Assembly (NCBI GenBank): GCA_030620115.1
Contig: JAUXFG010000139.1
Span: 1 to 10,426 of the forward strand
From: Candidatus Fermentibacterota bacterium
GTDB lineage: Bacteria; JAFGKV01
Reading direction: 5' to 3'
Length of the DNA stretch: 10,426 nucleotides
A program made the position numbers and the translations under genes. Shown piece by piece: positions 264 to 8,931 of the stretch (its first letter is position 1; every line of letters begins with the position of its first letter). The notes below the pieces were generated by a model. It was not told the DNA's origin. It did not search any database and was given only the letters and a program-made list of their open reading frames with translations.

Positions 264-285
264 CCGCGCCCACCGGAAACTCAGG

Positions 286-327
286 GTTTGCACAGAAATG
301 ACCTCACATCTTGACATCTTATCTCTG
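286..327 (-). repeat. Dispersed multi-hairpin repeat, partial copy 3
   Basis: The stretch matches one end of the repeat at 5471-5664 and 7938-8120: the segment reading GCACAGAAATGACCTCACAT is a variant of GCACAGAAATAACTTCACAT in copy 1. Only about 40 bases are present and the hairpin core is missing, so this is a truncated copy. Confidence 0.65.
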
Positions 328-5204: not shown

Positions 5205-5291
5205 CAATAAGTCCATGCGACATCGGAGAAATCCCCTCACCGAGCCATAGGCTCTATGAGCCGGTGGCCTCAATCCCCCTTTGCAGAAGGG
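5205..5291 (+). repeat. C-rich dispersed repeat (ATCCCCCTTTGC type), copy interrupted by a palindrome
   Basis: The start CAATAAGTCCATGCGACATC and the end CAATCCCCCTTTGCAGAAGG match the copy at 7681-7732, which is continuous. Here the copy is split by bases 5240-5267. The repeat belongs to a widely seen AATCCCCCTTTGC-type intergenic family, from general recollection only. Confidence 0.7.
5240..5267. mobile_element. 28-base palindromic insert with CCTCA flanking duplication
   Basis: The insert is absent from the related copy at 7681-7732. It is flanked on both sides by CCTCA (5235-5239 and 5268-5272), like a target-site duplication. With two flanking bases it folds as CACCG-AGC-CATAG-GCT-CTATG-AGC-CGGTG, a hairpin with two 5-bp stems separated by an AGC/AGC internal loop. 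It is far too short to encode anything, so any mobility would have to be supplied in trans. Confidence 0.45.
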
Positions 5292-5470
5292 AGAAGGTCG
5301 GATTCCCGGATTTGTAGAGGAGTTACAGTCATTCCGACGAAGCAAAGAACGTGCTCCTGGGTGATTCCCGGGCATTGTTCCTGCCAGTTCCCAAAAGCGA
5401 CTACACCATAGCATCACACAAGCCACAGAGTGCCTTGGCTTGATCTGTCTTGATCTTCCAGTTTGGTCTT

Positions 5471-5664
5471 TAGGGTTCGCGCAGGAATAGGATCGCATTC
5501 TTGGCGCACAGATTTGCCATAGGGATTTGCCATAGGATTGTCTCCCCGAGGGAGTGAAACCGGAGGCGTAGCCCAAGCTACGTCGAGGATTTCGCGATCG
5601 AGGCGAGGCCAATGGATGTGGAGAAGATGGGATGTCAAAATGTGAAGTTATTTCTGTGCGAATC
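5471..5664 (+). repeat. Dispersed multi-hairpin repeat, copy 1
   Basis: About 194 bases matching the inverse complement of 7938-8120. The core at 5540-5609 is identical to 7994-8063 at about 66 of 70 positions. It contains CTCCC-CGA-GGGAG and CGTAG-CCCAAG-CTACG hairpins and a CGATCG palindrome. It also carries a perfect 13-base tandem duplication, GATTTGCCATAGG, at 5511-5536, absent from copy 2. No transposase or clean terminal repeats are visible. Confidence 0.8.
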
Positions 5665-5728
5665 CTTTTCATAGAGATGCCGCCCTTGATGTCCCGCCGG
5701 GGCAATAACCCAACACCAATATGCTGAA

Positions 5729-5757
5729 AGGATAGCCCCAACCCAAGGACTTGTCAA
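5729..5757 (-). promoter_or_regulatory. Sigma70-type promoter, TTGACA-17-TATCCT
   Basis: A perfect -35 hexamer (5752-5757) and a good -10 hexamer (5729-5734) are 17 bases apart on the minus strand. Transcription would begin near 5722 and run toward the propeller and peptidase genes, whose first start codon is about 560 bases away. It is the best promoter seen upstream of that operon; no equally good site lies closer to the gene. Confidence 0.55.
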
Positions 5758-5816
5758 GCGCCGCTTGTGCATGGCTTGCCAGCATCCATGCCTTCACTCA
5801 TCATCTCCAAGGTCTT

Positions 5817-5860
5817 AAAATGGACCTTCGCCACCTGAGACAAGGCATTCGGTCCATTTT
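5817..5860. repeat. 10-bp perfect inverted repeat, AAAATGGACC / GGTCCATTTT
   Basis: The arms lie at 5817-5826 and 5851-5860 with a 24-base loop. The outer ends are A/T runs, so on either strand it could form a terminator-like hairpin ending in T residues. It could also be a dimeric operator. It lies about 60 bases upstream of the minus-strand promoter. Confidence 0.5.
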
Positions 5861-6030
5861 TCCACCACTGCTCCTCGCGCCTCGACCACCTTCTGCCCTA
5901 CGGCGGGAAGGCAGAATGATGGACTTCTCCTCGGAAAACTCCTCAGCTCTTCTCAGGAAATGTGCCCTGACTCCAACGGACTCTCTTACCTGACGATGTG
6001 AAGCTATCCAACGTCGCTCTTGACCAAATA

Positions 6031-6069
6031 GCTAGGGCCTCTCGGGAAAAACTCCCAAGAGGCCCTAGC
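6031..6069 (-). terminator. Hairpin downstream of the cysteine-rich FN3 protein gene
   Basis: A stem of 12 bp (GCTAGGGCCTCT / AGAGGCCCTAGC, 6031-6042 with 6058-6069), one mismatch, 3 more GC pairs, and a 7-base loop AAAAACT. It begins 27 bases past the stop at 6096. The T-tract after it on the minus strand is short (ATTT), so termination may be partial or factor-aided. Confidence 0.65.
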
Positions 6070-6095
6070 CGATTAAGCGAATGCGAGATCCGTCC

Positions 6096-7433
6096 TTACC
6101 TTGCCAGCACCGCCTTCTTGCTTACGACGCCGGAGGTGTGCACAAGCCTGAAGATATAGGCGCCTGAGGCCACTAGGTCGCCGCTCTTCGAGGCCCCGTC
6201 CCACTGGATCTCTCCTTGGCCTGGGGGAAGAATCTGGTCAATGAGTACCGCTACTTCCCTTCCAGCGAGGTCGTAGACAGAAAGGTTTGTCCTTCCCTCT
6301 GATGGAATATCGAGTCTGATATCTATGGATGAACCGTTCCACCCATTGGCCTCAAGGCCAAGCTTTGTCGGGCTGGTTTCGGGGACCACGACGGATACAG
6401 GCCCATGGAGCTTTTCGACGCCGGAGAAATCAACGTCGCTCACCCAGTATTCGAACCTGCCTCCAATATCCACATCGCTGTCGATGAAGCTGTAGGAATG
6501 CGGTGTCGAAGTCGTTCCGGCTCCGGGCACCAAGGCGACGTTGATCTTGGTCTTCTCGGATAGCTCCCCTGCCCTGTACACATTGAATCCGAGGTTGTCT
6601 TCCTCGCTCGCCGTTGCCCATCTGATCTCAACTTGACCCGGAACAGCCACTGCGCTGAGAGATGACATTTCCACGGGAACGTCCGCGCCTACGCATTCGT
6701 ACTCGCCATACATGGATGTGGTGTATGAAGGGTGCACGGCGTCGTCCATATCCTCCCAGAAACCTTGCCAATCAACCCAGTCATAGCATGGGCTTGCCAG
6801 CGCCTCGACTGTCAGGTGGATGTCGTCACCATTCCCGCTGCCGGTGGAGTCAAACATGACCACGGCGAAAAGACTATCGAGCGTGGGATGAGAAATTGTG
6901 CCGCAGTTGTTCAGCGGAAAACAGAGGGGGCCGAATAACCAATTCGACCCGTCGGGGGGATCTGGAAGCGACCACCGCCATTGATCGCCATTGCATATCA
7001 TGGCACTCGGCACGGCATCGCATGTGTCGGAGTTGGCCCAATTCCACAACTCGGCATGTGCCAGGAATTCGATATCGGGTCCTTGGGCACCCTCCCCTGT
7101 AACAACAACGTAGATGCAAACATTGAGGGGTTGGATTTCGGTAGTCCAACAGCACGTATCAACCAGCGCCATGTCGTTAAAAATGCCGTAGTACTCGTTT
7201 GAACCGAAAAACCAGCCACTGAAGAAACCAGCCCAGGTCTCAACACCGGATCTGCACGTGTCCCCCAGGGCCCTGGTTTCTTCCGGCATCTGGAGCCCAT
7301 CCGCCCGCTGCCCCCGGGGAGCCAACGGTGACAACTCCGCGGTGAACAACTGTCCTTGCTCTCGTTCGGGCCCAACAGCCCCCACCGATCCCACGAGGAC
7401 CGACAGGAGAGCAACTACTCCGATAAGACGCAT
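6096..7433 (-). CDS. Secreted cysteine-rich protein with FN3-like and C-terminal FlgD-like/sorting-type domains
   Basis: The start is the ATG at 7433, preceded by GGAGGTGATT, a near-complete match to the anti-Shine-Dalgarno tail with 5 bases between GGAGG and ATG; the GTG at 7439 lies inside this site and is unlikely. The product is 445 residues. MRLIGVVALLSVLVGSVGA is a clear signal peptide. Residues about 58-248 form an unrecognised domain with ten cysteines, including a CC pair, and many Trp and Tyr residues, as in disulfide-stabilised extracellular beta domains. Residues about 252-350 form a fibronectin-III-like module beginning VPVEMSSLSAVAV and carrying ATASEEDNLGFNVYR. Residues about 360-445 form a FlgD-like / type-A sorting-type domain: SVYDLAGREVAVL, then WDG and SGAYIFRL, ending in KKAVLAR. 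The protein is presumably exported and surface-attached or released. A hairpin 27 bases past the stop suggests a single-gene transcript. The divergently transcribed gene at 9268 encodes a relative sharing the FN3-like module. The substrate or partner is unknown. Confidence 0.88.
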   Translation of the reverse strand: MRLIGVVALLSVLVGSVGAVGPEREQGQLFTAELSPLAPRGQRADGLQMPEETRALGDTCRSGVETWAGFFSGWFFGSNEYYGIFNDMALVDTCCWTTEIQPLNVCIYVVVTGEGAQGPDIEFLAHAELWNWANSDTCDAVPSAMICNGDQWRWSLPDPPDGSNWLFGPLCFPLNNCGTISHPTLDSLFAVVMFDSTGSGNGDDIHLTVEALASPCYDWVDWQGFWEDMDDAVHPSYTTSMYGEYECVGADVPVEMSSLSAVAVPGQVEIRWATASEEDNLGFNVYRAGELSEKTKINVALVPGAGTTSTPHSYSFIDSDVDIGGRFEYWVSDVDFSGVEKLHGPVSVVVPETSPTKLGLEANGWNGSSIDIRLDIPSEGRTNLSVYDLAGREVAVLIDQILPPGQGEIQWDGASKSGDLVASGAYIFRLVHTSGVVSKKAVLAR

Positions 7434-7513
7434 AATCACCTCCAGGTTTTGTACCTGCGTCTACTTCGAAAACCAAACCCTCATGTGCCTTTTCCCCAAA
7501 TTGCGATCTTCCC

Positions 7514-7541
7514 AAGATAGGCGGCTTCCCCCACTCTGCAA
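7514..7541 (-). promoter_or_regulatory. Candidate promoter of the cysteine-rich FN3 protein gene, TTGCAG-16-TATCTT
   Basis: The -35 (7536-7541) and -10 (7514-7519) hexamers are 16 bases apart and would start transcription near 7507, giving a leader of about 70 bases before the ATG at 7433. The hexamers match the consensus at 4 of 6 positions each, so this is moderate support only. Confidence 0.35.
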
Positions 7542-7680
7542 CCATTAAGCTGCCCAGCGGGAATAGAGGAGGACCAAATAGGGCTGGAGGCTTCCGTTCT
7601 TGGAGTAGGGGTTCACGGGTTCAGAGGTTCACCGTTCAGGGTTGCCTTTCTGTTGTTGACCTTGTTCGCAGGTAAGTTCT

Positions 7681-7732
7681 CAATAGGTCAGTGCAGCATC
7701 GGAAAATCCCCCTCAATCCCCCTTTGCAAAAG
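7681..7732 (+). repeat. C-rich dispersed repeat (ATCCCCCTTTGC type), uninterrupted copy
   Basis: It begins CAATAGGTCAGTGCAGCATC and ends TCAATCCCCCTTTGCAAAAG. It aligns along its length with the two halves of 5205-5291 and shows what that copy looked like before its insert. Confidence 0.7.
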
Positions 7733-7832
7733 CTCACTATTGGACATACATAACACCGGTGGTGTGTCCTCTCCTCGATGTCTGCTGCAATCGCAACAAT
7801 TGGTTCGAATCTGTACGGAGCGAGTCGTCTTC

Positions 7833-7850
7833 GTCCGCCAGCCGGCGGAC
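7833..7850. repeat. REP-like palindrome variant, GTCCGCC-AGCC-GGCGGAC
   Basis: Seven-base arms around a four-base centre; a one-base variant of the 16-mer at 248-263 and 8998-9013 (AGCC in place of AGCT at the centre). Confidence 0.7.
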
Positions 7851-7878
7851 TCCATCATACTATCACGGTAATCCCGCT

Positions 7879-7911
7879 CGCCCTGAAAGGGCTTCACATA
7901 TCAGCCCAGGG
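7879..7911 (+). repeat. GCCCTGAAAGGGC-type repeat, copy i
   Basis: A small GCCCT/AGGGC hairpin is followed by TTCACATATCAGCCCAGGG. Related copies occur at 8141-8187 (minus), 8369-8413 (plus) and 8596-8643 (minus). The pattern of a small hairpin, an A/T-rich middle and a CCCAGGG box is shared. Confidence 0.6.
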
Positions 7912-7937
7912 TAAGGACGCGACCTGTGCTGAGGTAA

Positions 7938-8120
7938 GGGCTCACACAGGAATAACTTCACATTCTCGCATCCCATCTTTGCTGCATCTGTTTGCCTCGC
8001 CTCGATCGCGTAATCCTCGACGTAGCTTAGACTACGCCTCCGGTTTCGCTCCCTCGGGGAGACCAAATCTGCCGCATATCTGTGCGCCATAACTGCGAAC
8101 TCATTCTTGCGCGAACCCTA
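7938..8120 (-). repeat. Dispersed multi-hairpin repeat, copy 2
   Basis: About 183 bases, inverse in orientation to copy 1 (5471-5664). The core at 7994-8063 keeps both hairpins: CGTAG/CTACG with a changed loop, and CTCCC/GGGAG with loop TCG. Both ends match copy 1 too (CCCTA at one end and a CACAGGAATAACTTCACATT block at the other), so this is a defined unit and not chance similarity. Confidence 0.8.
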
Positions 8121-8140
8121 GGTCGAAGCAAGCGGCCGCA

Positions 8141-8413: not shown

Positions 8414-8595
8414 AACCCGCACTTCTCATCAGCTTCCTGCAGCAATGGCCGATATGCCCGCGCCTGCTTCGTTACGCTCCGTCGGACTCCTCGATGTATT
8501 GCCACGAATACAACTGCGGGGTCCTCGGTCGCAAGCCTTGCAGTCGCAGACATCTATGCCCTCTCGCGACGAAACCCGGTGAGAAGAGCGGATTA

Positions 8596-8643
8596 GGCCC
8601 TATCGGGCTTGCCCTGGGCTGGTATGTCAAGCCCCTTCGGGGC
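8596..8643 (-). repeat. GCCCTGAAAGGGC-type repeat, copy ii
   Basis: On the minus strand it reads GCCCCGAAGGGGCTTGACAT then ACCAGCCCAGGGC, aligning closely with copy i, and ends in a further AGCCCGATAGGGCC hairpin. The GCCCC/GGGGC arms replace GCCCT/AGGGC with pairing kept. Confidence 0.6.
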
Positions 8644-8692
8644 ACAATGGCGAAAATGGCTATGACCGCCAATGTCTTCATCCTTCCTCGGA

Positions 8693-8810
8693 ATCGGAAT
8701 CGCTATCGGGATCGAATTGCGGAATGGTCACATGGCCCTCAGTCACGAGAATCTGGATGTTTGATGAAGGCGAGAGCTACGGGATCTCTGATAGCGATAG
8801 CGATTCCGAT
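8693..8810. repeat. 16-bp perfect inverted repeat ATCGGAATCGCTATCG
   Basis: Arms at 8693-8708 and 8795-8810 with 86 bases between them. Both arms lie within short GATTCCGAT-type simple repeats. The enclosed stretch contains the possible gene remnant at 8732. Confidence 0.75.
8732..8790 (+). pseudogene. Possible remnant of a four-helix-bundle (23S rRNA intervening-sequence type) protein gene
   Basis: From the ATG at 8732 the frame reads MALSHENLDV and then stops (TGA at 8762). One missing base would restore MALSHENLDVWMKAR, which resembles the N-terminus of small four-helix-bundle proteins (pattern LDVW-x-KA-x-x-L). The rest, normally about 100 residues, is absent; the sequence runs straight into the inverted-repeat arm. 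This rests on a match of about 15 residues and a proposed frameshift, so it is a hypothesis. Confidence 0.25.
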
Positions 8811-8931
8811 CCCGATTCCGATGGTGTTGTGGAGGAGAAGGAATAACACCGTGGGCAAATCGAGACATGCATGAGAGCGATGGGAAGCGAATGGACGAAG
8901 CCGGGCTATGCATCTTGAATGTGGCAATGAG

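Follow-up and report, generated by a model that had tools for sequence, protein, structure and literature searches.

The 10,426-nucleotide stretch of DNA analysed here (the window) contains a multi-hairpin sequence more than once, which raises the question of whether the repeated unit is a mobile element or a structured RNA. The answer favored by the analysis, with a probability of about 0.92, is a hairpin MITE mobilised by ISAzo13: a non-coding element of ~180 bp with ~25-bp terminal inverted repeats that would be moved in trans.

Copies in the window and in the host genome

Repeat search and alignment confirm the original prediction of an element of ~190 bases in three copies, two of them mutually inverted; the elements stand, but their bounds shift once target duplications are left out. 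Full-length copy 1 occupies 5473..5665 on the forward strand, as delimited by inverted-repeat search, BLAST, and alignment, and owes its length of 193 bp to a small internal duplication of the GGGATTTGCCATAGG type. Its flanks, TTA/TTT, are read from the sequence as presumed target duplications, TTA at 5470..5472 on the left and TTT, with one base changed, at 5666..5668 on the right. Copy 2, full length at 181 bp, lies at 7938..8118 on the reverse strand; comparison of its filled site with an empty one places target duplications at 7935..7937 (TAA, left) and 8119..8121 (TAG, one base changed, right). The third copy is truncated, a solo right end on the reverse strand at about 284..324, recovered as inverted-repeat pair I3 and by alignment. 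The repeat search pairs 5540-5667 with 7936-8063 (128 nt, 86% complementary), 5471-5517 with 8074-8120 (47 nt, 83% complementary), and the solo end with copy 1 (283-324/5625-5666, 42 nt, 83%). In the alignment, copies 1 and 2 have common ends and a ~70-nt core with few differences.

A nucleotide search of the host genome, the check originally proposed, reveals further copies. Copy 1 has 62 BLAST matches in this 4.1-Mb draft of 296 contigs (best E values 1.7e-97 for itself, 2.9e-62, and 7.6e-57), and the repeat family is far above chance. The end pattern GGGTTCGCGCARRAATAR matches the host genome 215 times at up to 3 mismatches, against 11 with a reversed control; at up to 2 mismatches in 1.44 Mb of host sequence, the counts are 155 and 0. 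Twenty-two aligned host copies have sharp common boundaries and unrelated flanks, opening with (A)GGGTTCGCGCARRAATAA and closing with its reverse complement. Terminal inverted repeats, here ~25 bp, are a hallmark of MITEs, as are a short (< ~500 bp) non-coding body and many copies; most full copies measure 144-300 bp. Of 41 host elements, 37 have a midpoint outside ORFs of at least 150 aa, as do 22 of 23 elements elsewhere; such ORFs cover 76% and 65% of the respective sequence. In host copies L010, L012-L015, L017, and L024, the ends are kept and the interior is swapped for other hairpin modules, for example CTTGCCACGGCGGAGCCTTGGCGTAGACGG and CCCCATGTAGGGGCATGGCATGCC.

The window holds other repeats as well. 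Positions 8533-8599 belong to a different dispersed family, a ~64-bp repeat (core GCGACGAAASCCGGTGAGAAGTSCGGGYTAA) that recurs dozens of times in the 1.44 Mb of host sequence sampled. At 382-519, a 42-bp unit is present twice in direct orientation (90%) and once inverted in between (D1, I7), and inverted repeats built from GGAATCG/CGATTCC units lie at 8688-8822 (I8, I10, I12, I13).

Target duplications and an empty site

Identical 3-bp flanks, TTA/TTA or TAA/TAA, border 21 of 28 distinct copies from Desulfobacterota/Nitrospirae, whereas a shuffled control gives a mean of 10.9 and a maximum of 18 in 2000 shuffles. Duplication lengths of 2 or 4 were not found among these 28 copies. TTA on one side is matched by TTA on the other rather than by its complement, so the flanks are directly duplicated and lie outside the palindrome. 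In host copies, 3-bp identity occurs in 5 of 41, close to chance (mean 2.8), and a weak signal is confined to positions 2 and 3 (p about 0.04). Host copies are 85% identical on average, and the flanks of such old copies have likely mutated, which would explain their weak duplication. The fixed-length target duplication that marks MITEs is present at 3 bp (TTA/TAA) and is weak in these older copies.

These flanks also bear on another kind of repeat. REP/BIME-like sequences, which a RAYT (Y1) transposase mobilises, are likewise palindromic, intergenic, and high in copy number, but the element is far longer than REPs, has true terminal inverted repeats, and shows direct target duplications that contradict such an origin; Y1 transposition is not known to make any. 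This reading has next to no probability.

The proposed check for empty sites yielded one, for window copy 2. The surroundings of this copy recur without the element at host contig C64 of assembly G000, near 6350, as a paralogous empty site: the filled site reads GCTGAGGTAA, then the 181 bp, then TAGGTCGAAGC, and the empty site reads GCTGAGCGAAGTCGAAGC. Subtracting the element and one 3-bp copy from the filled site gives the exact empty length, with two substitutions. The C64 site directly attests to an insertion. A further candidate for an empty site (L148/L189) was not accepted; another dispersed repeat explains it.

ISAzo13 elements with the same ends

The element had been thought to lack recognised transposase ends. 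This was mistaken: its ~25-bp terminal inverted repeats agree with those of ISAzo13-family elements, both in the host and in a genome of Desulfobacterota type. To find a partner, 1.44 Mb of host sequence were scanned for pairs of ends that face each other at the spacing of an IS, which led to C193:1704-3734, where MITE ends with 1 and 3 mismatches stand on either side, flanked by CTA/CTA. The second frame of this locus encodes an ISAzo13 transposase (PF07592, E 5e-118; NF033519, E 8.6e-121) whose NF033519 score of 403.6 bits, against a cut-off of 200, places the partner in the ISAzo13 family. The first frame ends in sequence that matches the beginning of this model. In a second host ISAzo13 copy, at C130, the right end differs from the pattern by 1 mismatch and the left end is degenerate. 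In genome G117, an ISAzo13 element flanked by TAA/TAA carries the pattern exactly at one end and with 1 mismatch at the other, and its ends are those of the MITEs in its own lineage. Ends common to an autonomous element, as expected of a MITE, are found at C193, at the right end of C130, and in G117. The non-autonomous mobile element originally proposed is supported by its terminal inverted repeats, its TWA duplications, the empty site, and the presence of its ends around a transposase gene.

The duplications agree with those of the wider family. A different, unrelated multicopy ISAzo13 in genome G122 has other outer bases and the same inner AATAACTT motif, and it duplicates TTA/TAA in 10 of 13 copies; the CTA/CTA and TAA/TAA of the partners resemble these. 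ISAzo13 of another kind, without MITE ends, is also present (L234). The ISAzo13 gene was not detected in most MAGs carrying the MITE, which could be due to loss or incomplete assembly.

Might another DDE family move the element? IS1031-type elements duplicate TNA, which would suit a MITE of the IS5/IS1031 kind, and a gene for the host's DruA-Tn5/IS4 fusion sits at C188 between two MITE ends. The inverted repeats of this fusion element hug its gene and differ from the MITE ends, however, which makes it an insertion nested in a MITE copy, and it was rejected as the autonomous partner. No PF01609 locus among those returned from 10 genomes has two such ends, and the two with a single end nearby are one truncated MITE and the C188 case. 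ISAzo13 fits both the ends and the duplication, leaving mobilisation by another DDE family highly improbable. Also set aside were pairs of ends at a distance of 0.6-0.9 kb (L154, L225, L229), which have ordinary genes between them and a poor second end.

The DruA domain (PF14236), known from Druantia defence, occurs in fusion with a Tn5/IS4 transposase (761 aa; L118:2343-4628) and with a DDE_5 domain (L227:3917-5158), and it may be a transposase accessory domain. In the window, CCTCAATCCCCCTTTGCAAAAGCTCACTATTGGACATACATAACACCGG at 7711-7770 and 5268-5289 is similar to the termini of the C188 DruA-Tn5/IS4 element and is perhaps a remnant.

A mechanism by which ISAzo13 would mobilise the MITE can be proposed from these sequences. 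In three partners, the overlap of the two frames, in the -1 register, falls on a run of A8 or A9; fused at this run, the frames encode a continuous protein of 574 or 602 aa with a common junction, KKTP. The ISAzo13-family DDE transposase would be made from the two overlapping frames, probably via a -1 frameshift on the A8-A9 run. It would then recognise the MITE ends in trans, in what we infer to be cut-and-paste movement, and insert the MITE into TTA/TAA targets with duplication of 3 bp. An ISAzo13 subgroup at L227:1991-3714, L239:731-2538, and L235:1489-3296 has a conserved A8-A9 run at which a -1 shift joins the frames, as well as an N-terminal extension of ~180 aa with no significant Pfam match.

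The left end of the IS differs from that of the MITE beyond the terminal 18 bases. Over bases 19-28, most comparisons place both MITE arms closer to the IS right end than to the left one. This resemblance suggests that both arms arose by inverted duplication of the IS right end.

Relatives in other lineages and the full-length hairpin

When named genomes were scanned with the pattern, the element turned up in MAGs assigned to Desulfobacteraceae, to other Deltaproteobacteria, and, in one case, to Nitrospirae, taxon labels that can be wrong for MAGs. Its ends are present in 24 of 85 genomes of one carrier's order. Among 290 genomes sampled across the domain, 6 match, and many copies are found only in the host, G207, and G237; the latter two carry the same 179-180 bp unit. 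Phage and plasmid collections gave no match, nor did viral contigs scanned with the end pattern. Thirty-one copies align nearly without gaps over 181 columns, with identity of 0.85 within each group and 0.70 between groups.

The whole ~180 bp is an imperfect palindrome with covarying arms. RNAalifold folds the alignment into one hairpin spanning the entire element, with 64 pairs, 32 of which have double changes, a number reached in 0 of 500 shuffles. With this structure, 95.7% of cells pair, and doubly changed cells number 129; shuffles give 37, and slid controls give no more than 32. The shuffle test is inflated by the relatedness of the copies, and slid controls favor a structure derived from the same alignment. 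In other lineages, L269 for example, stem sequences are replaced. The size of the difference and the replaced stems argue for maintained complementarity. The original prediction had stems unchanged while loops differ, and its direction was right, but stems do vary across the 31 copies, with compensation.

Strong compensatory covariation along the entire length, in copies that are nearly all intergenic, could also be produced by a structured regulatory RNA or terminator-like element that was duplicated about and kept its hairpin for RNA function. A transposon is instead indicated by the 3-bp duplications and the empty site, along with ends that also border a transposase gene. The element occurs in both orientations in the window, no consistent gene association was seen, and no Rfam family matches the window at gathering score. 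The RNA option raised at the outset is not needed, and it is very unlikely.

For the MITE, either selection on DNA or RNA structure or templated correction between the arms would yield the covariation. It is a tentative and rather doubtful idea that the whole hairpin is itself selected, for instance as a cruciform or single-strand form uniting the ends for the transposase or shielding the element, such that the MITE keeps its covarying 180-bp fold while crossing bacterial phyla with ISAzo13 elements.

Relation to known elements

The ISAzo13 family (PF07592, NCBIfam NF033519) shares with the MITE its terminal inverted repeats (GGGYTYRCGCAAAAATAA) and TTA/TAA target duplication, whereas the MITE is geneless, ~180 bp long, and palindromic over its full length. 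The partners described here depart from the family in their N-terminal extension and split frames. Bacterial MITEs such as Correia/NEMIS, Nezha, and MITEAba12 are likewise short, non-coding, intergenic, and high in copy number, with terminal inverted repeats and a short duplication; unlike bacterial MITEs in general, the element is tied to ISAzo13, and its interior shows both conservation and covariation from one distant lineage to another. Tourist-like MITEs of eukaryotic PIF/Harbinger are short, palindromic, non-autonomous elements with TTA/TAA (TWA) duplication, but their transposase family and host domain are different, making the likeness an analogy only. REP/BIME sequences with RAYT are also palindromic intergenic repeats, yet they lack such terminal inverted repeats and target duplication and use another transposase.

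A search of openly accessible literature brought up no previous description of an ISAzo13 MITE. A review of prokaryotic MITEs leaves ISAzo13 unmentioned (PMC10969869), and one other paper mentions both ISAzo13 and MITE, with no ISAzo13 MITE described in the matching passages (PMC9208149). A literature search for MITE and Desulfobacter found nothing. MITEs are a known kind of element, of which the ISAzo13-linked one appears new.

With this finding, the little-studied ISAzo13 family acquires a non-autonomous partner as well as a measured target rule of 3 bp (TTA/TAA), and the MITE accounts for many dispersed repeats of the host genome. Its interior, conserved and covarying across distant lineages, offers ready-made data on the question of whether a hairpin fold plays a part in DNA transposition.
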